Assembly (NCBI GenBank): GCA_009838765.1 | Contig: VXQX01000080.1 | Coordinates: 1-64,000 of the forward strand | Origin: Gemmatimonadales bacterium | GTDB taxonomy: Bacteria > Gemmatimonadota > Gemmatimonadetes > Palauibacterales > Palauibacteraceae | DNA length: 64,000 nt | Direction: 5' to 3' | Shown: positions 4,249 through 15,502 of the stretch, one piece after another | Numbering within the stretch: position 1 is the first letter of the stretch | Layout: every line of letters starts with the position of its first letter | The notes under the pieces: generated by a model | Told to the model about the DNA's origin: nothing | The model's input: the letters and a program-made list of their open reading frames with translations, nothing else | Databases searched by the model: none | Made by a program: the position numbers and the translations under genes

Positions 4249-4974
4249 CTAGCCGGGAAGCGTGAGGACCTGGCCCGGGTAGATCCGGCTCCCGTTGAGG
4301 TTGTTCGCAGATCGCAGGCGGGGCACGGTCGTGTCGTGGCGGCGCGCAATCTCCCACAGCGAATCGCCCGCCCTCACCCGGTACCGCCCTCCGTCAGTGA
4401 CGTACTGCTGCCGTGCGCGCGTGATTTGATCGACGTAGGCGGCGTATTGCTGCGGGAAGATCGCCACGTGGTAGTGCGGCGGGCGCCGCTCCAGGGTCAC
4501 CTCGAGCACCCCCGACCCCTCGAGCTGAAGCAGCACGCGCTCGAGCCACCCGCGACACTTCGGGTCGGGGCGGCGCAGGTCGAGCGCCATGCCGGTGGGG
4601 TGGACGGAGCGGGGAGAGGCGTTTCGCGGCTGCCGGTTCTTCGGGCGCGTCAGGCTGGTGACTACGAGCCGCTCGCCGCAGGCGCTCCGGTACTGCCGGG
4701 CGAGCCGCGAGATGAACAGCTTGACCTCGGGCCGGGCGTAGGGGAACGAGAGATCGTGGAGCATGTAGTCCGGCGAAGGGGGCACCGGTACGAGATAGCC
4801 GGCGTTGACGAAGCGCTCGACCTGCGCGGGCGTGGCGATGTACGTGAAGTCGTGCTCGCGGGCGACGCGGTTCTGGCGGTCCAGGGAACTCGTGGACCCG
4901 CGGAGACTCTGCCCCGATATCTCGCCGGGCACGGCCACGGCCACAAGAAACGGCACCACCGTCCAGCTTCTCAC
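4249..4974 (-). CDS. Secreted DUF5715 / M15-like peptidase-fold protein with C-terminal LysM
   Basis: 241 residues from a GTG preceded by GGAGG at 4-nt spacing. The leader (VRSWTVVPFLVAVAVPGEISG) is a signal peptide. The middle resembles the D-Ala-D-Ala carboxypeptidase M15/DUF5715 fold, with V-T-S-L-T-R-P, S-V-H-P-T-G-M-A-L-D-L and H-Y-H-V-A-I-F, in which the two His-containing segments and the Asp would bind zinc. A LysM peptidoglycan-binding repeat occupies about the last 45 residues (YRVRAGDSLWEIARRH ... IYPGQVLTLPG). It probably acts on or attaches to cell-wall peptidoglycan. It is the first gene of an operon with the TonB receptor and the DUF4249 lipoprotein. A good sigma70-type promoter lies 50-80 bp upstream. 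Confidence 0.8.
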   Translation of the reverse strand: MRSWTVVPFLVAVAVPGEISGQSLRGSTSSLDRQNRVAREHDFTYIATPAQVERFVNAGYLVPVPPSPDYMLHDLSFPYARPEVKLFISRLARQYRSACGERLVVTSLTRPKNRQPRNASPRSVHPTGMALDLRRPDPKCRGWLERVLLQLEGSGVLEVTLERRPPHYHVAIFPQQYAAYVDQITRARQQYVTDGGRYRVRAGDSLWEIARRHDTTVPRLRSANNLNGSRIYPGQVLTLPG

Positions 4975-5024
4975 GATGCCTCCACCCCGCTGATCCACCC
5001 CACCCGAACTGCACCCGAGCATGA

Positions 5025-5085: not shown

Positions 5086-6021
5086 CTACCGGTCGTCGCG
5101 GATGCCGAAGAACCGCTCGCGGCGGGCGAGCGCATGGCGGATGGCGTCGGGGTCGGCGCGGGCGAAGCGGATGGGCGTACCGGGCCGCGCCTGCGCGAAC
5201 GCGTCGAGCGCGATCGGGTCGACGGAGCCGAGCTTGGCGTAACCGCCGATCGTCGGGCGGTCCCGCATGAAGACGAGCGGCCGACCATCGCCCGTGACCT
5301 GAACCGTCCCGTCCACGAGCGGCGTGGAGTCGAGGATGCGCGGGCCTGAGCCCAGGGCGGGGCCGGCCAATCGGCCCGCGGTTCTGTCGCTCGCCGGGTC
5401 GACAGTCCATTCCGCGTCGAACACCCGCTCCCGGTCCGCGTCCGAGAACTCGGCCCACTCGTAGCCGGCGATCAGCGGCAGCGTCAGCGGGGCCGTCTCC
5501 GGCGGGACGAGTTCGCGGGGAACGCGCCGCACCGGACAGGCGCGTTCGGGTTCGCCCCAGCGGAGGGGTTCGCCGGTGCGCAGGGGCCGGCCGAGCAGTC
5601 CGGGCCATCCGTCGCGCACGACGGCCGACGCGGAGCCGAACGCCGTGGGGACATCGACGCCGCCGGGGAACGCGACGACGGCGCGCATGCCGGTCGCGCT
5701 GTAGCCGAGCCGAAGCACCTGACCCGACCCGGCCCGGACGGTGCGCCAGGTCCCCGTTTCGACGCCGTCGAGCGTGGCGGCGCAGTCCGCCCCCGTCAGC
5801 GCCACGACCGTCTCGACGGCGAAGCGCAGGGCGAAGCCGCCCAGGGTGACCTCGAGCGCGGCCGCCGCCGGATCGTTGCCGAGCAGCCGGTTGGCCCACA
5901 GGTACGCGCGCTGGTCCATCGCGCCCCCGGGTGCCAGCCCGGCGCGGCGGCCGGTCCGCCGGCCCAGGTCCTGGATCGTGCAGAACGGCCCTGGGCGGTC
6001 CACGACGCCGTGCGGGCTCAT
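5086..6021 (-). CDS. pxpC: 5-oxoprolinase subunit PxpC (biotin-dependent carboxyltransferase / KipA family)
   Basis: 311 residues. This is the third subunit of prokaryotic 5-oxoprolinase, which hydrolyses 5-oxoproline (pyroglutamate) to glutamate with ATP in the cytoplasm. Family signatures: an N-terminal G-P-F-C-T-I-Q-D-L-G-R segment near residues 10-20, L-A-P-G-G-A-M-D just after it, L-L-G-N-D-P-A-A-A-A-L-E near 46-57, and a late R-D-R-P-T-I-G-G-Y-A-K-L segment. Its ATG overlaps the pxpB stop as ATGA, and pxpA precedes pxpB, so the operon order is pxpA-pxpB-pxpC. Length and context match the complete enzyme. Confidence 0.93.
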   Translation of the reverse strand: MSPHGVVDRPGPFCTIQDLGRRTGRRAGLAPGGAMDQRAYLWANRLLGNDPAAAALEVTLGGFALRFAVETVVALTGADCAATLDGVETGTWRTVRAGSGQVLRLGYSATGMRAVVAFPGGVDVPTAFGSASAVVRDGWPGLLGRPLRTGEPLRWGEPERACPVRRVPRELVPPETAPLTLPLIAGYEWAEFSDADRERVFDAEWTVDPASDRTAGRLAGPALGSGPRILDSTPLVDGTVQVTGDGRPLVFMRDRPTIGGYAKLGSVDPIALDAFAQARPGTPIRFARADPDAIRHALARRERFFGIRDDR

Positions 6022-6689
6022 CCGCCCGCAGCCTCGTACTCATCGCGGTCGATCGGGCGGAACTGGACCGAGGCGCCGGGCCGGAAGCGCGCGATCCGCT
6101 CGGCAGCATCGGCGAAGAGTGCCGAGGGCACGCGGCCGATCAGACGCCAGCCGCCCGGCCCCGCCGCCGGGTAGACGCCGGTGCGCCGGTCGGCGATCCC
6201 GACCGCCCCCGCTTCGACCCTGGGGCGGGGCGTCGTGAGGCGCGGCATCGCGATCCGCGCGTCCACGTCCCCCAGGTACGCGAACCCGGGCGCGAATCCG
6301 GTCGCGAGGACGGCATACGCCGCACCGCTGTGGAGCCGCGCGACCTCCGCCACGCCCACGCCCGCGTTCGCCGCCACATCCTCGAGATCGGAGGCCAGTT
6401 CCGGATCGTAGCACACCGGCAGCGAAACGGGGTCGCCCGCGTCAATCCGGGGCGTCTCCGCCAGACACTTCTCGGCGGCCGCGGCCAGCCTGGATTCGAT
6501 GTCGGTCGCGTCCCAACTGTGGGGCGACCCCTCGACGAGCAGCCGGTTGAAGGCCGGGATCGTCGCGCGAAGGTCCGGCAAGGCATCGCGCGCGGAACGT
6601 TCGAGACGGAGGACTCGCGCGATTCCGTCCCGGTCGGGCGCCACCGGAAGCGTAACCAGGGCGCTCACCGGCCCCGGGAAGGTGATCAC
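6018..6689 (-). CDS. pxpB: 5-oxoprolinase subunit PxpB (KipI family)
   Basis: 223 residues from a GTG that lies 7 nt after the pxpA stop codon; the open frame continues upstream into pxpA without homology. Family marks are A-F-N-R-L-L-V-E-G in the first fifty residues, L-P-V-C-Y-D-P-E-L-A-x-D-L in the middle, and the strongly conserved G-F-A-P-G-F-A-Y-L-G-D followed by P-R-L-T-T-P-R-x-x-V-x-A-G-A-V-G-I-A. These match PxpB, which forms a complex with PxpC to convert pyroglutamate to glutamate. It overlaps pxpC by ATGA. Alone, the family was first described as the sporulation kinase inhibitor KipI, but with pxpA and pxpC adjacent the oxoprolinase role is clear. Confidence 0.92.
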   Translation of the reverse strand: MITFPGPVSALVTLPVAPDRDGIARVLRLERSARDALPDLRATIPAFNRLLVEGSPHSWDATDIESRLAAAAEKCLAETPRIDAGDPVSLPVCYDPELASDLEDVAANAGVGVAEVARLHSGAAYAVLATGFAPGFAYLGDVDARIAMPRLTTPRPRVEAGAVGIADRRTGVYPAAGPGGWRLIGRVPSALFADAAERIARFRPGASVQFRPIDRDEYEAAGG

Positions 6690-6696
6690 CGGCGAT

Positions 6697-7428
6697 CTAC
6701 GTCTTCCGCGGCACGAGTTCGCGGATGCGGCGAAGCACCGCCGTGGCGGAAGGGTTGTCGCCGTGAACGCAGAGCGTCTCGGCCGCCACGGGCAGCGGAC
6801 CCGCGGGCGTCTCCACGAATCCATCGAGGAGATTCGCCACGTGGCCGGCCACGGCGTCCGCGTCGGAGAGGACGGCGCCATCGATCCCGCGTGCCTGGAG
6901 GCGCCCGTCCGCCGCGTAGGCCCGATCGGCGAAGGCCTCGAACGCCAGCGTCAGCTCCGTGTACTCCAGCAGCGCCGCGTGCCGCTCGCGCTCCGGCGTC
7001 GCCTGCAGGACGAAGGCGAGCGACGGATCCAGGGCCGCCACGCCCTCCGCCAGCCGCGTTAGAAGCCGGTCGTCCTTCATCATGGCCAGGTACAGCGCGC
7101 CGTGGGGCTTCACGTGTCGCAGGCGGATGCCCAGGGCCGCCGCCACGCCCAGCAACGCCCCGATCTGCGCCTGCATTTCGAGCACCAGCGAGTCGAGCGG
7201 CCAGTCCAGCCGCAGACGCCCGAAGTTCCGCCGGTCGGGATAGCCCGGGTGCGCCCCCGCCTGCACGCCGTGCCCGGCCGCCAGTTCGAGCGTCCGGGCC
7301 ATCGTATCGGGATCCCCGGCATGGCCGCCACAGGCGATATTGGCCTGGTCGATGAGCGGCATCACCGCTTCATCGGCCCCCTTCTCCCAGGGCCCGTAGC
7401 TCTCGCCCATGTCACAGTTGATCTGCAT
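6697..7428 (-). CDS. pxpA: 5-oxoprolinase subunit PxpA (LamB/YcsF family)
   Basis: 243 residues, starting with the family-typical M-Q-I-N-C-D-M-G-E-S-Y-G. Other conserved blocks are A-N-I-A-C-G-G-H-A-G-D near 32-42, A-H-P-G-Y-P-D-R-x-N-F-G-R near 59-71, V-K-P-H-G-A-L-Y near 105-112 and L-C-V-H-G-D-N-P near the end. This is the subunit that completes ATP-dependent 5-oxoprolinase, so the cell can recycle pyroglutamate formed from glutamine or released from peptides. It is first in the pxpABC operon and is divergent from the M19 dipeptidase gene, leaving about 155 bp for both promoters. Confidence 0.94.
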   Translation of the reverse strand: MQINCDMGESYGPWEKGADEAVMPLIDQANIACGGHAGDPDTMARTLELAAGHGVQAGAHPGYPDRRNFGRLRLDWPLDSLVLEMQAQIGALLGVAAALGIRLRHVKPHGALYLAMMKDDRLLTRLAEGVAALDPSLAFVLQATPERERHAALLEYTELTLAFEAFADRAYAADGRLQARGIDGAVLSDADAVAGHVANLLDGFVETPAGPLPVAAETLCVHGDNPSATAVLRRIRELVPRKT

Positions 7429-7582
7429 GCGGGAAGATACCCGTGCGGGACGGCCGTTCGCACCTGCGTCTCGCCACGACGCCGCCCGGGACGCGGCATG
7501 GGTGGCGGCGCGCCGTCCACCAAGCGAGAATCCAATGGTAAGCTGTGTTGCCGCTGCGTTTGTCAACGGGAGTCGGTGCAAG

Positions 7583-8779
7583 ATGACGCGAATTCTCACC
7601 CGGACGCCCGCGATGGCGGTCCTGTCCGCGCTCGTCCTCGGGTTCGCGGCCGCAGATGCAAGCGCGCAGGACGAACATCTCGAAATCGCGAAGCGCGTGC
7701 TGTCGAGCGTCCCCCTGTTCGACGGACACAACGACCTTCCCTGGGCAATCCGGAACGCGGAAGCCCCCCGCGACGTCCGCGCCTACGACATCTCGCGCAC
7801 CACCCCGGGCCACACCGATCTCGCCCGCCTTCGGGCCGGCGGCGTCGGGGCCCAGTTCTGGTCCGTCTACGTCCCCGCCTCGGTCATGTGGGACGGCGGC
7901 GGCGCGCGCATGCAGCTCGAGCAGATCGACATCGCGCTCCAGATCATCTCCGATCACCGCGAGGACCTGGGGCTCGCCCTCACCGCAGCGGATGTGATGG
8001 ACCAGTTCCACCGCGGCAAGGTCGCCTCGATGCTCGGCATGGAGGGAGGTCACGCGATCGAGAACTCGCTCGGCGCCCTGCGGGCGTTCTACGCACTCGG
8101 CGTCCGCTACATGACGCTCACGCACAGCGCCAACCTCCCCTGGGCCGACTCCTGCTGCGCGCTGCCCGAACTGGGAGGACTTTCCGCCTTCGGCAAGGAA
8201 GTCGTGCGCGAAATGAACTGGCTGGGCATGCTGGTCGACATCTCGCACGTGTCGCCGGGAAGCATGCACGACGCACTCGACGTGACCGAGGCGCCGGTCA
8301 TCTTCTCGCATTCCTCCGCCCGTGCGGTGACGGACCACCCGCGCAACGTGCCGGACGACGTGTTGCGCCGGCTGCCCGGGAACGGCGGCGTGGTCATGGT
8401 CACGTTCGTCGAATCCTTTGTGAACCAGGAGGTCGCCAACTACGTCGGCCCATCGGCAGGACGACCGCGCGCCACGATGGCCGATGTCGTGGCGCATATC
8501 GAGCACATCCGCGACGTGGCGGGCATCGACCACGTCGCGATCGGGGGCGACTACGACGGCATCGACCGGGGGCCGGTCGGCCTGGAGGACGTATCGACGT
8601 ACCCCGCCCTGTTCGCCGAACTCTCCCGCCGCGGGTGGACCGAATCCGAACTCAGGGCCCTCGCGGCCGACAACCTGCTTCGGGTCATGCGGGCCGCCGA
8701 AGCGACCGCACGCCGGCTCCAGGCCGCACGCGACCCCTCCCTGGCCACGATCGAAGAGCTGGACGGGCTGGTGCCTTGA
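7583..8779 (+). CDS. Secreted M19 family (renal-dipeptidase-like) peptidase
   Basis: 398 residues. The start ATG follows GGGAG and gives a signal peptide (MTRILTRTPAMAVLSALVLG...) with cleavage near A-S-A-Q. Zinc ligands of membrane/renal dipeptidases are visible: H49-x-D51 in D-G-H-N-D, the bridging Glu at about E154 in G-M-E-G-G-H, H222 in D-I-S-H and H243 in S-H-S-S-A-R. The late G-G-D-Y-D-G-I motif completes the fold. It would hydrolyse dipeptides in the periplasm. Two secreted FAH-fold proteins follow in the same direction, 32 bp downstream, so a joint periplasmic degradation function is possible but not shown. Confidence 0.9.
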   Translation: MTRILTRTPAMAVLSALVLGFAAADASAQDEHLEIAKRVLSSVPLFDGHNDLPWAIRNAEAPRDVRAYDISRTTPGHTDLARLRAGGVGAQFWSVYVPASVMWDGGGARMQLEQIDIALQIISDHREDLGLALTAADVMDQFHRGKVASMLGMEGGHAIENSLGALRAFYALGVRYMTLTHSANLPWADSCCALPELGGLSAFGKEVVREMNWLGMLVDISHVSPGSMHDALDVTEAPVIFSHSSARAVTDHPRNVPDDVLRRLPGNGGVVMVTFVESFVNQEVANYVGPSAGRPRATMADVVAHIEHIRDVAGIDHVAIGGDYDGIDRGPVGLEDVSTYPALFAELSRRGWTESELRALAADNLLRVMRAAEATARRLQAARDPSLATIEELDGLVP

Positions 8780-8811
8780 GACCCGCCGTCCCCAACCGAG
8801 AGGAAAGACCC

Positions 8812-9987
8812 ATGAGAACCGCACTGCGCAGACGAACTTCGACCGGACGGGCCCTTCCGCTTGGAGTGATCGCGGTCCTCTTCTCCGCGGCCTCCGTCGG
8901 CGCGCAGGATGTCGCGGGCATCGTCCTCGTGGAACCGTTCAAGGTGGGGACGTTCGCGATCCGAGACGTCCCGCGCGTCGGGCTCGTGCTGCACGACTCC
9001 TTCATCGTCGACATCGAACTGGCGAACGAGGTACTCGAGCGGAACCGCGCGTATCCGAGGGTGCCCGCGCCGACGGACATGCTCGACCTCATCGGCCGCT
9101 ACGAGTACGGACTCCAGCGCCGTCTGTACGAGATCGTCAACGAGACGATCGCCTATCAGCGGCTTTCCGGCCCCACGCGCGCGGACTACGTCTACGATGT
9201 CGATGAGATTCGGATCCTCCCGCCCATCATGTATCCGGGCAAGATCCTGAACGCGGCGAGCAACTTTTACAGCCGCGTCGCCGCGGACGCCCCCGAAGGG
9301 GAGCGAGAGGAGGCGGTTCGCCAGCGCCGCGAGAACCGGGGCGTGCCCTACCTCTACCTCAAGCCGTCGCGCGGCGCCGTGGTCGGGACCAGCGAACGGA
9401 TCGTGATCCCGCACGGCCGGAGCCAGACCGACTGGGAGGTGGAGCTGGGTGTCGTCATGGGGCGGGCGGCGAAGTACGTCGCCTCCGAGGATGCCCAGGC
9501 GACCGTATTCGGGTACACGGTGACGATCGACGTGTCCGACCGCGGCGGGCGTCCCCCGGGCGGCAACCCCACAACTTCGGACTGGCTGGTCGAGAAGGGG
9601 CACGACACGTTCGCGCCGATGGGCCCGTGGATCGTCCCGAAGGAGTTCTACGGCGACCCGATGGAGATGCTGCGGCAGACGCTCGATGTGGGCGGCGAGC
9701 GCATGCAGGAGGCGACGGCGGGGGACATGATCCACTCGCTGTGGGAGTTGATCGAATACGCGTCCTCGATCCTGACGCTCTTCCCGGGAGACGTGATCAA
9801 CCTCGGCACCTCCGGCGGCGTCGGCATGGGCGAGGCGCGGTTCCTGCAGCCGGGAGACATCGTCACCGCGACGATCGACGGGATCGGCACCATCGAACTC
9901 CCGGTGGTGGAGGGGCCGGAGCCTCTCGGCGAAACGGGCGCGCGGCTGCCGCCGGTGAGTACCTACCGGCGGGATCCCGGCTCATGA
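8812..9987 (+). CDS. Secreted fumarylacetoacetate hydrolase (FAH) fold protein, first paralogue
   Basis: 391 residues. A signal peptide covers about residues 1-31 (arginine-rich, then a hydrophobic core, then V-G-A-Q). The C-terminal two thirds are an FAH domain: P-P-I-M-Y-P-G-K-I-L-N near 137-147, the metal-binding D-W-E-V-E-L (E209, E211), D240 in T-I-D-V-S-D-R-G-G, and K262-x-H264 in K-G-H-D-T-F. FAH-fold enzymes cleave C-C bonds of acylpyruvates or hydrate and decarboxylate dienoates, and are nearly always cytosolic, so the leader is unusual. The stop overlaps the ATG of a close paralogue (ATGA). AGGA lies just ahead of the start. The substrate is unknown. Confidence 0.85.
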   Translation: MRTALRRRTSTGRALPLGVIAVLFSAASVGAQDVAGIVLVEPFKVGTFAIRDVPRVGLVLHDSFIVDIELANEVLERNRAYPRVPAPTDMLDLIGRYEYGLQRRLYEIVNETIAYQRLSGPTRADYVYDVDEIRILPPIMYPGKILNAASNFYSRVAADAPEGEREEAVRQRRENRGVPYLYLKPSRGAVVGTSERIVIPHGRSQTDWEVELGVVMGRAAKYVASEDAQATVFGYTVTIDVSDRGGRPPGGNPTTSDWLVEKGHDTFAPMGPWIVPKEFYGDPMEMLRQTLDVGGERMQEATAGDMIHSLWELIEYASSILTLFPGDVINLGTSGGVGMGEARFLQPGDIVTATIDGIGTIELPVVEGPEPLGETGARLPPVSTYRRDPGS

Positions 9988-11129
9988 GGGCGCTCCTGGC
10001 CGCCGCGGCCCTGGCGTTCTCCGCTCCTCTGGCTGCCCAGGGAGGGCCGGAGATCGACATCGCGGAACCCTTCAAGGTGGGGACCTTCGAGATCGACGGC
10101 GTTCCGCGCGTCGGCCTCGTGTTGCGGGACGCGCTCGTCGTCGACATCGAGGAGGCGAACCGGGACCTCGAGCGAAACCTCGCCTACCCGCCCGTCCCGC
10201 CGCCGGCCGACATGATCGACCTCATCGGCCGCTACGAGTACGGGATCCGGCTCCGACTGTACGAAGTCGTCAACGATCTCGTGGCCCGGGGCGGGCTGTC
10301 CGGGAGCGGCAGAGCCGACTTCGTCCACGACCTCGAGGACGTGCGCGTCCTTCCGCCCATCATGTACCCGGGGAAGATCCTGAACGCGGCGGTCAACTTC
10401 TACAGCCACGTCAACGAGGCGGGCACCGAGGAGGAACGACGCGAAGCCCGCCGCCAGCGGCGCGAGAACCGCGGCGTGCCGTATCTCTTCCTCAAGCCGA
10501 CGCGCGGCGCGGTGATCGGAGCCGACGACCGGATCGTGATCCCCTTCGGCAGGGACCGCACGGACTGGGAGGTGGAACTCGGCGCGGTGATCGGGCGCAG
10601 CGCCAAGTACGTGGATGCCCGCGACGCCGAGGACCATGTGTTCGGGTACACGGTGACGATCGACGTCTCCGACCGCGGCGGACGGCCGCCCGGCGGCAAC
10701 CCCATGACGTCGGACTGGTTCGTCGGAAAGGGCCACGACACGTTCGCGCCCATGGGCCCGTGGATCGTGCCGAAGGAATTCTACGGCGACCCGATGGAGA
10801 TTCTGCGCCAGACGCTGGACGTCGGCGAGGAGCGCATGCAGGAGGCGACCGCGGGGGACATGATCCACACCCTGTGGGAGCTGATCGAGTACGGGTCGTC
10901 GGTCGCGACGCTGTTCCCCGGGGACGTGATCAACAACGGCACCTCGGGCGGGGTGGGCATGGGCACCGCGGTGCGCGGGGAGACGCGATTCCTGCAGCCC
11001 GGCGAGGTCGTCAGCGCCTCGATCGACGGCATCGGCACGCTGACGCTCGAGGTGGTGGCCGAGACGGAGCCGCCCGGGGGCACCGGCGCCCGGCTGCCGC
11101 CCGTCCGCAGCTATCGGGGCAACCGCTAG
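9984..11129 (+). CDS. Secreted fumarylacetoacetate hydrolase (FAH) fold protein, second paralogue
   Basis: 381 residues, clearly homologous to the preceding gene along its whole length: A-E-P-F-K-V-G-T-F, the L-I-G-R-Y-E-Y-G segment, P-P-I-M-Y-P-G-K-I-L-N, D-W-E-V-E-L, I-D-V-S-D-R-G-G-R-P-P-G-G-N-P and F-A-P-M-G-P-W-I-V-P are all shared. It has its own shorter signal peptide (MRALLAAAALAFSAPLAAQ). All metal-binding residues are kept, so both copies look active. It carries an insertion of a few residues (T-A-V-R-G) absent from the first copy before R-F-L-Q-P-G. Translation is coupled to the first copy by ATGA. This is a tandem duplication inside one operon. Confidence 0.85.
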   Translation: MRALLAAAALAFSAPLAAQGGPEIDIAEPFKVGTFEIDGVPRVGLVLRDALVVDIEEANRDLERNLAYPPVPPPADMIDLIGRYEYGIRLRLYEVVNDLVARGGLSGSGRADFVHDLEDVRVLPPIMYPGKILNAAVNFYSHVNEAGTEEERREARRQRRENRGVPYLFLKPTRGAVIGADDRIVIPFGRDRTDWEVELGAVIGRSAKYVDARDAEDHVFGYTVTIDVSDRGGRPPGGNPMTSDWFVGKGHDTFAPMGPWIVPKEFYGDPMEILRQTLDVGEERMQEATAGDMIHTLWELIEYGSSVATLFPGDVINNGTSGGVGMGTAVRGETRFLQPGEVVSASIDGIGTLTLEVVAETEPPGGTGARLPPVRSYRGNR

Positions 11130-11167
11130 CGGCAGGGCTCTCGCGGGCGGGCGTCGGCGACTCCCGC

Positions 11168-11698
11168 TCAGTCGTCGGCGGCCGCGCGCTCGAGGACCCG
11201 GAGAAACTCGTCCAGCGCGGCGCGGCCCCTGTCCCTTGCGTAGTAGCGGCGCACCTCGCGATAGCGATCCTCCGGGTCGAGCTTCAACCCCTCCGTCATC
11301 ACCCACTCCTGGATCTGCGCGGGCCGGGGGCCCCACCACCCACGCTCGCGGAACGTCTCGTCGTAGACGATGAGGACCGGAATGGACCGGCTCGTCCCGT
11401 TCGTCAGATGGGCGTCCATCAGGTCCGGGTTCTCATCCCGAAGGAGGACGCGCAGTTCGATGTTCCCGGCGGCCTCCGCCAGGCGATCGAACACGGGGAG
11501 GGTGTTGATCGCGTCTCCGCACCAGTCCTCGGTGAGCGCGATGACGTTCCACCGCCCGGGGATGGCGCAGGCACGTTGCCGGGTCGCCTCGTCCACCGTC
11601 GCGCGCCGGGCCAGCGCATGCCAGAGTTCGCGGTTCTTCTCGACCGTGTCGAGGTACTCGGAGAACGTCGGGGCGGTACGGAATCGACTTCGGTTCAA
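11168..11698 (-). CDS. Thioredoxin-family protein with a single-Cys WCGD active site
   Basis: About 176 residues using a TTG start; the reading frame is open to 11863 but would then overlap the divergent gene. The thioredoxin-like core has L-T-E-D-W-C-G-D-A-I-N-T-L-P-V-F, followed by a cis-Pro segment R-S-I-P-V-L-I-V-Y. The active site is W-C-G-D rather than W-C-x-x-C, so the second Cys is missing and classic disulfide reduction is unlikely. This subgroup is widespread but its function is not established. It has no signal peptide and is probably cytosolic. It converges with the FAH operon and is divergent from the amidinohydrolase. The start position is uncertain. Confidence 0.7.
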   Translation of the reverse strand: MNRSRFRTAPTFSEYLDTVEKNRELWHALARRATVDEATRQRACAIPGRWNVIALTEDWCGDAINTLPVFDRLAEAAGNIELRVLLRDENPDLMDAHLTNGTSRSIPVLIVYDETFRERGWWGPRPAQIQEWVMTEGLKLDPEDRYREVRRYYARDRGRAALDEFLRVLERAAADD

Positions 11699-11816
11699 GC
11701 TCGGGAGTCCTCGTGCTGCGGTATGTGCGGGGTGGTGGGGCCGTCGATGCCGATGGCGCCGCGACCAGCGAATGTACGGGTGCCGAAGGTACGGGGGCTG
11801 CCGTAGCTTCAGCCAG

Positions 11817-12743
11817 ATGAACGGGCGGCTGAAGACGGGAGCGAGATTCGGCGTCTCCAGCATGGTGGCGCGGCTCCGGCGCGTGGCGATGCGCCGCCCC
11901 GGCCGGGCGACGCTGGAGGCGGACCCGGAGCGGTGGCACTACGCGGGGCCGATCGAGCCCGAGCGGCTGCTTCGCCAGTACGACGCGTTCGCGAAGTGCG
12001 TCGCCGCCTCCGGGGCGGAGGTCGAGTGGATCGACGCCGCGGCAGGCGACGGGCTCGCGGACGCAATGTTCCCCTTCGACCCCTCCTTCATGACGCCGGG
12101 CGGTGCGATCCTCCTGCGACCCGGCAAGGAACTGCGGCAACCGGAAGTGGCGAGCCACGAGGCGCTCTACCGGCGGCTCGACGTGCCGGTGATCGGCACC
12201 ATCGAGGCCCCGGGACTCCTGGAAGGCGGGGACCTGATGTGGGTGGACGAACGCACGCTCGCGGCGGGGCGCGGTTTCCGCACCAACCAGGCGGGCATCG
12301 ACCAACTCCGGGCCATGCTCGCGCCGCTCGGGATCGAAGTCCGGGCGTTCGATCTCCCGATGTGGAACGGAAGCGCCGCCTGCCTGCACCTGCTCTCGCT
12401 CGTGAGCCCGCTGGACCGGGATCTGGCGCTCATCTACTCCCGGCTCTTCCCGGTCGCGCTTCGCGAGTTGATGCGCGAGCGCGGCATCGAATGCCTCGAG
12501 GCGGGGGAGGAGGAATTCACGGCCTCCGCCGGGATGAACCTCAACGTGCTCGCGACGGCCCCGCGCCGCTGCATCGCGCTCGGCGGGTTTCCGGAGACGG
12601 TCCGGCTGATGAGAGGCGCGGGCTGCGACGTCACGTGCTTCGACGGCGACGCGCTCTGCATCCGGTGCGAGGGCGGCCCGACGTGCCTCACGCTCCCCAT
12701 CCTTCGCGACGACCGCCCCTCCACACCGGGAACGAACCCATGA
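11817..12743 (+). CDS. Dimethylarginine dimethylaminohydrolase / amidinotransferase-fold hydrolase
   Basis: 308 residues. The guanidine-modifying (pentein) fold is shown by M-F-P-F-D-P-S-F early, the E-A-P-G-L-L-E-G-G-D block in the middle (substrate-binding acidic residues), N-Q-A-G-I-D-Q-L, the His-containing C-L-H-L-L-S segment, and the C-terminal catalytic Cys290 in G-G-P-T-C-L-T-L-P. The usual G-x-H-C is G-P-T-C here. The family hydrolyses N-methylated arginines to citrulline and amines, or acts on related guanidino compounds. The neighbour, an SRPBCC protein, overlaps its stop by ATGA. The specific substrate cannot be read from the sequence. Confidence 0.8.
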   Translation: MNGRLKTGARFGVSSMVARLRRVAMRRPGRATLEADPERWHYAGPIEPERLLRQYDAFAKCVAASGAEVEWIDAAAGDGLADAMFPFDPSFMTPGGAILLRPGKELRQPEVASHEALYRRLDVPVIGTIEAPGLLEGGDLMWVDERTLAAGRGFRTNQAGIDQLRAMLAPLGIEVRAFDLPMWNGSAACLHLLSLVSPLDRDLALIYSRLFPVALRELMRERGIECLEAGEEEFTASAGMNLNVLATAPRRCIALGGFPETVRLMRGAGCDVTCFDGDALCIRCEGGPTCLTLPILRDDRPSTPGTNP

Positions 12744-13958: not shown

Positions 13959-14050
13959 CCGCGCGACCTTGGCACCCGTGGCCGGAAAGGCGCGAGGCCC
14001 GCATGTTGGCAGGGTTCGAGAAACCTGTCGTCCGGACTCCGGGGGAAGCC

Positions 14051-15502
14051 ATGAAACGCCTCACGTTCGCGGCCATCACGCTCGCTCTGCTCGCACCGGC
14101 AGCCGCCGCTGCCCAGCAGGAGCGGTCCTACGATTACTTCGCTCCGCAGCGGGAGATGATCCAGCGCGGCGTCCAGGCCATCCTCCAGTGCAACGGCCTG
14201 TTCACGGGAGATCGGTCGCTGGAGCAGGTCTTCGAACAGGAGCTCGCCTACCTGCGCGACCCGGTCGGGACGGCTGAGGGCGGCGACTACGTCGTCGACT
14301 GGGAGCGGAAGGCTGTCGCCATCGGCGAGCCCGGCACGACCCCGACCATGAGGGCGGCGTTCCGCGAGGGGATCGGGTGCGTGATCCTGTCGCCGGAGCA
14401 GACCTTCGACGACATCGACGACCTGCCGATCCTGACCACGACCCGGACGGGCCTCGATCCGGCGGGGGCGGCGTGGCCGGACGGCGACCTCGTCATGAGC
14501 CGCCCACTCCCGCGCGGCGTCGATCCGGTGGCCCTCGAGGCCGCGTCTGACTGGACCTTCGACCGCGAATCCCCGGAGCAGGTGACGCTCAGCCTCATCG
14601 TCCTCCACGACGGGGAGATCATCCACGAACGCTACGCGCGCGGCATCGACATGTTCACGAAGACTCGTACCTGGTCGACCGCGAAGAGCATAGCATCAAC
14701 CCTCATCGGCATGCTCGTCGACGAGGGGAAGCTGGCGCTCGACGAGCCCCTGCCCTTCGACTGGCTGCCCGAGAACGCAGGCTCAGCGGAGAACGATCCC
14801 CGGCGGGAGATCACCCTCCGTCACGTGCTCAACATGTCCAGCGGACTCTATCCCGTGGACAGCTGGGGCATGGAGTACGCGACCGGATCGGGGTTCTCCT
14901 ACTGGGCCGGGGAGAGTTCGGTGCACGGCGCCCGCAACCGCTCGCTCATGCAGGAACCCGGGACGTTCTGGGACTACGAGAACTACGACACGCTGCTCGG
15001 CGTGTACGCGATGAAGCAGGCGATCGGCGACCCGCAGGCCTACCTCGAGTTCCCGCGGGAACGCCTCCTCGACAGGATCGGGATGCGGAACACGCTTCTC
15101 AGCACGGATCGGTTCGGCGACTTCATCATGAGCAGCCAGATCTACACGACGGCCCGGGACCTGGCCCGCTTCGGGCTCCTCTACGCGCAGAACGGGATGT
15201 GGAAGGACGAGCGCCTGATCTCCGAGGAGTGGATCGACTTCGTGCGGACGCCCGCCCCCGCCACGTCCGAGACCGGCAACTTCTACGGCGGCCAGTTCTG
15301 GCTCGTGCCCGACGACCGCACGGACGTGCCGAAGGACGCCTACTCCACTGCCGGCAACCGCGGCCAGTTCGTCGTCATCGTCCCGTCGCACGATGTCGTC
15401 ATCGTCCGGCGCGGACTCGACTACGGCCGGCAGGGCTTCGACCGCTGGGACATGACGCGCGAGGTGCTCAAGGCCTTCGAGCCGGTCGCCACGAACCCCT
15501 GA
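14051..15502 (+). CDS. Secreted serine hydrolase (class C beta-lactamase / DD-peptidase fold)
   Basis: 483 residues. ATG with GGGGGAA upstream gives a signal peptide (MKRLTFAAITLALLAPAAAAAQ). The penicillin-binding-protein fold motifs are S-T-A-K at S209-K212 (nucleophile and base), Y-E-N at 309-311, and a late S-T-A-G-N-R-G-Q segment in the place of the KTG triad. Between leader and catalytic domain there is an extra N-terminal stretch of about 130 residues common in this esterase or 6-aminohexanoate-hydrolase-like group. It is likely periplasmic and acts on an ester or amide; beta-lactam resistance should not be assumed. The upstream neighbour is divergent, so it appears to be a single gene. 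Confidence 0.85.
   Translation: MKRLTFAAITLALLAPAAAAAQQERSYDYFAPQREMIQRGVQAILQCNGLFTGDRSLEQVFEQELAYLRDPVGTAEGGDYVVDWERKAVAIGEPGTTPTMRAAFREGIGCVILSPEQTFDDIDDLPILTTTRTGLDPAGAAWPDGDLVMSRPLPRGVDPVALEAASDWTFDRESPEQVTLSLIVLHDGEIIHERYARGIDMFTKTRTWSTAKSIASTLIGMLVDEGKLALDEPLPFDWLPENAGSAENDPRREITLRHVLNMSSGLYPVDSWGMEYATGSGFSYWAGESSVHGARNRSLMQEPGTFWDYENYDTLLGVYAMKQAIGDPQAYLEFPRERLLDRIGMRNTLLSTDRFGDFIMSSQIYTTARDLARFGLLYAQNGMWKDERLISEEWIDFVRTPAPATSETGNFYGGQFWLVPDDRTDVPKDAYSTAGNRGQFVVIVPSHDVVIVRRGLDYGRQGFDRWDMTREVLKAFEPVATNP

Follow-up and report, generated by a model that had tools for sequence, protein, structure and literature searches.

A predicted exported FAH-fold family and its dyad-less tandem paralogue in the Palauibacter lineage

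We analysed a 64,000-nucleotide stretch of DNA from a Gemmatimonadales bacterium (contig VXQX01000080.1, positions 1 to 64,000), referred to here as the window. It holds two coupled genes for FAH-fold proteins, FAH1 and FAH2, that share 72% mutual identity and lie behind a gene for an M19 dipeptidase. Enzymes of this fold cleave C-C bonds or tautomerise their substrates, and most descriptions place them in the cytosol or in mitochondria; the host, which belongs to a type of bacterium associated with sponges or corals, seems to export two proteins of the fold. The reading that we favour, and hold to be rather probable, is that FAH2 is a periplasmic, metal-dependent FAH-fold hydrolase of small dioxo acids and that FAH1 is an altered partner without the His-Glu dyad, or an enzyme with other chemistry. 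The fold, the motifs, the duplication, the loss of the dyad, the selection, the gene overlap, and the rule-based leaders were computed; export, metal binding, the reaction, and the partnership are what we infer.

Results

Active sites of FAH1 and FAH2

FAH1 (positions 8812 to 9987, forward strand, 391 residues) and FAH2 (positions 9984 to 11129, forward strand, 381 residues), the latter being of the ancestral type, matched PF01557 with 167.6 and 175.2 bits, respectively, against a cut-off of 23.9, and no other Pfam family was matched. The start codon of FAH2 overlaps the stop codon of FAH1 within ATGA, an overlap found in 8 of 9 tandem loci, with GTGA in the ninth. Scanning GTDB genomes with both proteins yielded 373 candidate stretches; 310 of them encode relatives, and we retained the 80 best of these, which make up 79 loci. 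The resulting family set of 89 rows comprises 80 FAH2-like and 9 FAH1 rows.

All 80 FAH2-like and all 9 FAH1 rows carry the metal ligands, EVE and an Asp, together with a Lys and a Thr of the active site. The His-Glu dyad behaves differently in the two paralogues. His-142 and Glu-145 of FAH2 (residues 142 to 145, H-V-N-E; positions 10407 to 10418, forward strand) are present in every FAH2-like row, whereas FAH1 has Arg and Ala at these places in 9/9 rows (motif NFYSRVAA; residues 155 to 158, R-V-A-A; positions 9274 to 9285, forward strand). The places were equated through printed alignments with NYTDHIAE of 3qdf and NYRDHAIE of 8sky. For FAHD1, the corresponding His-30/Glu-33 pair is proposed to hold and activate water, according to the consulted portions of PMC8398924 and PMC7115867. 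As 11 ordinary FAH control proteins of related genomes retained the His without exception and the Glu in only six cases, we consider the lost His of FAH1 more telling than the lost Glu.

A further change lies downstream of the metal site, in FAH2 residues 227 to 241 (positions 10662 to 10706, forward strand), which, by alignment, run from the metal ligand Asp-227 to Arg-234 and an RPPGG insertion. The same portions of the FAHD1 papers (PMC8398924, PMC7115867) describe Gln-109, seven residues past the metal-site Asp-102, as controlling the C4 carbonyl of the substrate. The place of this Gln is occupied by Arg in 89/89 family rows, 88 of which were counted by a motif pattern and the last, L094, by reading. 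Gln was found there in 10 of the 11 ordinary controls, the remaining one being unmatched by the pattern, and alignment also places Gln in 8gsr, 3qdf, and 8sky. The Gln-to-Arg change, with the RPPGG insertion after it, is family-wide and not special to the window. Judged by sequence alignment against FAHD1, FAH2 has the dyad and FAH1 does not, and Gln-109 is replaced in both.

Duplication and divergence of FAH1

In a tree of the 89 rows, FAH1 and Palauibacter FAH2 each formed one group, and the two groups were sisters (99/81). The stem of FAH1 measured 0.80 changes per column and that of Palauibacter FAH2 0.19. The ratio omega was 0.116 for FAH1 and 0.101 for FAH2 (21 pairs each, from seven loci with both genes whole), showing purifying selection on FAH1 and, after its burst of change, a level of constraint close to that of FAH2.

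Thirteen of the 169 columns conserved at 95% or more in the FAH2-like rows were lost by FAH1, including His-142, Glu-145, Gly-248, Asn-318, and Arg-331-Gly-332 of a deleted loop. When the 169 columns conserved to the same degree in the 71 non-Palauibacter rows were considered, FAH1 departed in 14 and Palauibacter FAH2 in one. Seven of the 13 lost columns lie no more than five residues from motif residues, compared with 40 of the 169 conserved columns (P 0.014); we do not use this clustering as main evidence because the count includes the dyad itself and is partly circular.

We examined 17 genomes of the genus, the window's own included: 13 had both copies (in two of them FAH1 is cut by a contig end), three had a single copy, and one had neither. 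The single copy of genome G006 grouped outside the Palauibacter clade in an earlier tree. The window belongs to a genome of Candidatus Palauibacter or of something close to it: its best named relative, Ca. Palauibacter rhopaloidicola, has an FAH1 of 97% identity. Within our sample the tandem was seen solely in the window's genus, and FAH1 is a lineage-specific tandem duplicate of the Palauibacter lineage. A third FAH gene of the window's genome lies on another contig and has 35% identity over the FAH domain; the leader rule described below found a leader at neither of its two candidate starts.

Predicted leaders and spread of the family

Leaders were assigned with a home-made rule that asks for a basic n-region, a hydrophobic core, and small residues at -3/-1. 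The predicted Sec leader of FAH1 (positions 8812 to 8904, forward strand) reads MRTALRRRTSTGRALPLGVIAVLFSAASVGA before QD, with the border after VGA given by the rule. That of FAH2 (positions 9984 to 10037, forward strand) also passes and reads MRALLAAAALAFSAPLAA before QGG; here the rule sets its border earlier, after residue 11, and the border after LAA was read by eye. Across the family a start could be assigned in 83 of the 89 rows, and 81 of these passed the rule; the two that failed, L072 and L093, lack a basic residue ahead of the hydrophobic stretch. The leader letters are free to vary across phyla, and conservation begins at EPFKVGTF. Because leaders recur so widely with varying letters ahead of this conserved start, we read the family as ancestrally exported, by a predicted Sec route, rather than export as having arisen in this operon.

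The first-pass annotation of this DNA, made from the letters alone, had described tandem coupled FAH-fold paralogues, each with its own leader and a full metal site, behind a leader-bearing M19 enzyme. The Pfam scores, the mutual identity, and the ATGA overlap agree with the first part of this description, as do the retained EVE, Asp, Lys, and Thr residues with the second, and homologues show no degeneration of the metal site. The leaders stand as predictions, both passing a permissive rule. The M19 gene, with its leader-like start, ends 32 nucleotides before the start of FAH1, and the three genes make up one apparent operon.

Among the 11 control loci, the rule fired at candidate starts of L022, L028, L025, and L030; the first two are probably false calls, and the last two probably encode genuinely exported FAH proteins of shorter kinds outside the family. 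L025 (genome G012) has 64 residues and L030 (genome G055) 76 residues before the FAH match; one of the leader-like starts reads MNPKIRHPLLAMAAILTTSSSACA before Q, and one has a lipobox-like LAAC. Since these other kinds also start in a leader-like manner, export of FAH proteins may have had more than one origin in this phylum.

The kept loci, being the best 80 of the 310 relatives, are titled Gemmatimonadota, Gamma-/Proteobacteria, Acidobacteria, Opitutae, and Poribacteria, and relatives across phyla show about 56 to 82% identity. Apart from the Palauibacter group that carries the tandem, all 71 loci show just one copy in the fetched stretch. Predicted leaders and, normally, a single copy mark the family in the fetched loci of Gemmatimonadota, Pseudomonadota, Acidobacteriota, Verrucomicrobiota, and Poribacteria. 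Relatives with an E value of 1e-100 or better turned up in 51 of the 249 genomes sampled from the phylum (14 of 112 genera); within the order to which a Woeseiaceae genome belongs, 13 of 117 sampled genomes had them at 1e-80. The FAH rows of L081 and L084, titled Gammaproteobacteria, and of L051, titled BD2-11 clade, nest among Gemmatimonadota-titled rows on very short branches, and for this reason these three record titles may be wrong. Among the papers listed by our literature search on export of FAH proteins, none was a study of a leader-bearing FAH family, and the exoproteome papers listed there carry the FAH term once each; UniProt and NCBI annotations lay outside that search.

Structural models

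The model of FAH2 had a mean pLDDT (predicted local distance difference test) of 79.9 and a pTM (predicted template modelling score) of 0.81; the values for FAH1 were 75.0 and 0.75. Against YisK (8sut), FAH2 aligned over 295 residues, nearly its whole mature length, with Z 34.6 and a root mean square deviation (rmsd) of 2.4, and FAH1 over 277 residues with Z 30.6 and the same rmsd. HpcG, MhpD, and 4-oxalocrotonate decarboxylase, which are hydratases or decarboxylases with this fold, aligned at Z of about 16 to 18.

Proposed mechanism and alternatives

We propose that FAH2 would cross the inner membrane by the Sec route, as its leader suggests. In the periplasm, Mg or Mn held by Glu-196, Glu-198, and Asp-227 would bind a small 2-oxo or 2,4-dioxo acid at its 1,2-dicarbonyl end. 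By analogy with FAHD1 and FAH chemistry, His-142 and Glu-145 would then activate water for C-C cleavage. Arg-234 takes the place of the Gln that positions the C4 carbonyl; this departs from the standard acylpyruvase pocket and makes it probable that the substrate has an additional acidic or polar group. As to the reaction, our leading guess is that a 2,4-dioxo acid bearing one more acidic group is hydrolysed in the periplasm. FAH1 is the product of a tandem duplication within the Palauibacter lineage. It has lost the dyad, and with it several residues of the pocket, but retains the metal site, and purifying selection has maintained it since then in a translationally coupled pair. Most likely FAH1 acts as a dyad-less partner, as part of a heteromer or as a regulator, or as an enzyme confined to chemistry for which the dyad is not required. 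Because FAH1 lacks the two residues thought to activate water, the pair probably does not represent a single degradation enzyme in duplicate.

Several observations weigh against this interpretation. The sister relation of FAH1 and Palauibacter FAH2 has modest support in the Shimodaira-Hasegawa approximate likelihood ratio test (81). The dyad (residues 141 to 146) and the Arg-234 loop (residues 233 to 250) fall in regions that are modelled with low confidence in FAH2, and they are placed by sequence alignment. The dyad Glu is Gly or Asn in 5/11 ordinary controls, so that losing it would by itself mean little. The FAHD1 papers present the role of the dyad as proposed from structure, and PMC8398924 adds that the essential residues are still to be elucidated. 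The leader rule is permissive and fires on internal or doubtful starts of some control proteins, and a stricter border (Ala, an optional residue, Ala, Gly, or Ser, then Gln) was found in 43 of the 83 rows.

Among the alternatives, the one that deserves most attention, though we give it a good deal less than even weight, is that FAH1 is a working enzyme of changed chemistry, such as a keto-enol tautomerase or decarboxylase of an oxaloacetate-like acid, which would use the metal and the Lys network without the dyad. The metal ligands, the Lys, and the Thr kept in 9/9 rows and the omega of FAH1 are consistent with this. Moreover, in the consulted part of PMC10825186, FAHD-type proteins including YisK act mainly as oxaloacetate tautomerases, and a lysine-aspartate relay of Asp-102 and Lys-123 is proposed for the enol chemistry of FAHD1 (PMC7115867 and PMC8398924, in part). 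On the other hand, the FAH1 pocket may be damaged: Gly-248 is changed to Glu and Phe-246 to Leu beside the conserved Lys, Asn-318 is changed to Leu beside the conserved Thr, and the Arg-Gly loop is lost; a periplasmic 1,3-dicarbonyl substrate is also hypothetical.

A bolder proposal, which we regard as speculative and on the whole unlikely, is that a bacterial FAH-fold family moved wholesale to the periplasm and re-cut its active site by the Gln-to-Arg change and the insertion, and that in Palauibacter the dyad-less, translationally coupled FAH1 joins FAH2 in an exported heteromer, binding the metal or the substrate without hydrolysing it. No other exported FAH catalyst paired with a pseudoenzyme is known to us, the papers listed in our search on FAH export included. 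An exported family would imply periplasmic chemistry of 2-oxo or 2,4-dioxo acids, which we could fit to no pathway here. The pair also offers a natural dyad-minus experiment on whether the dyad serves hydrolysis only or tautomerase and decarboxylase activity too, a point that the FAHD1 literature, in the portions consulted (PMC8398924, PMC7115867), leaves open.

Gene neighbourhood

Gene neighbours were taken from stop-to-stop frames with a home-made filter, and some of these frames may be shadows. In other phyla, a pyrroloquinoline quinone (PQQ) alcohol dehydrogenase could oxidise an alcohol to a dioxo compound in the periplasm, which the exported FAH protein would cleave. A PQQ dehydrogenase was present in the fetched stretch of 13 of the 71 non-Palauibacter loci, and in one gammaproteobacterial clade the PQQ gene lay downstream on the same strand in 7 of 8 rows. 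However, a gene on the opposite strand intervenes in four of those seven, and the gammaproteobacterial cases could represent one inherited arrangement. Eighteen genomes held 5 to 52 PQQ matches each, making chance nearness likely in Acidobacteria, and none of the PQQ genes listed for the genome of the window shares a contig with the FAH genes. As PQQ matches are so numerous in these genomes, we temper this lead and think such a route improbable. The acidobacterial metagenome-assembled genomes G278, G279, G284, G288, and G289 (the genomes of L099, L095, L092, L082, and L070) had 42 to 48 PQQ beta-propeller matches each, in tallies that scored 41 of up to 332 first-look candidates.

The M19 membrane-dipeptidase-type gene (positions 7583 to 8779, forward strand; alternative start 7613) encodes a protein that matched PF01244 with 382 bits against a cut-off of 26, and its leader-like start, MTRILTRTPAMAVLSALVLGFAAADASA before QD, was judged by eye. 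Its best solved relative is 3id7, with which the stretches DGHND, EGGH, SHV, SHSS, and GGDYDG align. The first-pass annotation had seen in the two FAH proteins equivalent exported acylpyruvases or dienoate hydratases that follow the M19 enzyme in one degradation step, and had offered the M19-FAH-FAH order as a marker of that pathway. In line with this, M19 lies upstream of FAH1-FAH2 in all seven tandem loci that hold the upstream flank (the window and L034-L039; L049 and L055 begin inside FAH1, and their upstream order is not judgeable), and both metal sites are full. Against it stand the dyad loss in FAH1, which that annotation had missed, and the family-wide Gln-to-Arg change, which weakens the acylpyruvase suggestion. 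In addition, outside the tandem group M19 occurred in the fetched flank of one of 71 loci, L041, from a same-genus relative with a single FAH copy. That locus reads PxpC (truncated where the contig ends), PxpB, PxpA, M19, an S9 prolyl oligopeptidase on the opposite strand, FAH, and Thioredoxin_9. Other misses of M19 are not firm because flanks vary and some contigs are short. We therefore consider two equivalent enzymes of one step very improbable. M19-FAH as a general module was likewise rejected, and the linkage is weak evidence for a pathway because close linkage was seen just in Palauibacter. As the S9 gene separates M19 from FAH in L041, the close spacing in the window may stem from loss of a peptidase gene.

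Least of all do we credit the notion that the leaders are wrongly assigned starts or uncleaved anchors and the enzymes cytoplasmic, which could appeal to the permissive rule and to start codons chosen by position, given that across phyla EPFKVGTF is repeatedly preceded by a hydrophobic stretch and a small-residue border and that nearly all judged rows pass.

The M19-FAH1-FAH2 trio sits between divergent PxpC, PxpB, and PxpA genes for 5-oxoprolinase (positions 5086 to 7431, reverse strand, with the PxpA start taken from the beginning of the profile match) and a convergent Thioredoxin_9 gene (positions 11168 to 11863, reverse strand), which bounds the operon. The divergent PxpABC genes beside a leader-bearing M19, an arrangement that recurs in L041, could belong to a route from dipeptide through 5-oxoproline to glutamate. 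This suggests dipeptide and 5-oxoproline use without a clear place for FAH. A promoter and terminator scan of positions 7300 to 11300 found neither and was uninformative. The neighbours in one Gemmatimonadota clade, arginase and amidohydrolase among them, look like inherited synteny and were not used; the arginase neighbour had no clear leader in the stretch read. Elsewhere in the window, positions 4249 to 5022 (reverse strand) encode a DUF5715 protein with a LysM domain at its C terminus, and positions 14003 to 15502 (forward strand) a Beta-lactamase-family (PF00144) protein with a match to 3-succinylated cholic acid synthase far under the cut-off.

Comparison with known systems

The M19 protein resembles known dipeptidases of its family (3id7, human DPEP1) in its metal-site stretches and PF01244 score, and is unusual just in preceding a FAH pair. 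The best match of the FAH proteins among solved structures by sequence is L-2,4-diketo-3-deoxyrhamnonate hydrolase (8gsr, 1.4e-41), which also supplies the best NCBIfam model, NF053535. The pair scored 147.4 and 155.8 bits with this model, under its equivalog cut-off of 500, and 8gsr differs in having Gln at the place of Arg-234 and a gap at the insertion. Scores with the HpaG-C, HpaG-N, and PRK10691 equivalogs were likewise all under their cut-offs.

Bacillus subtilis YisK (8sut, 8sky) is the top fold match, including the N-terminal domain, and its metal triad, dyad, and Lys align with those of FAH2. It shares about 28 to 30% identity, has Gln for the Arg of the family, and lacks the RPPGG insertion. 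The first residues of its solved chain align with the mature part of FAH2, with no leader visible. According to the consulted part of PMC10825186, YisK has a part in envelope remodelling and possesses tautomerase activity. Finally, FAHD1, an acylpyruvase and oxaloacetate decarboxylase-tautomerase, shares the metal ligands, the Lys, and the Thr with both proteins and its His-30/Glu-33 pair with FAH2. The family is set apart from FAHD1 by Arg in place of Gln-109, by its leader, and by an extra N-terminal domain, and FAH1 in addition by the absence of the dyad.

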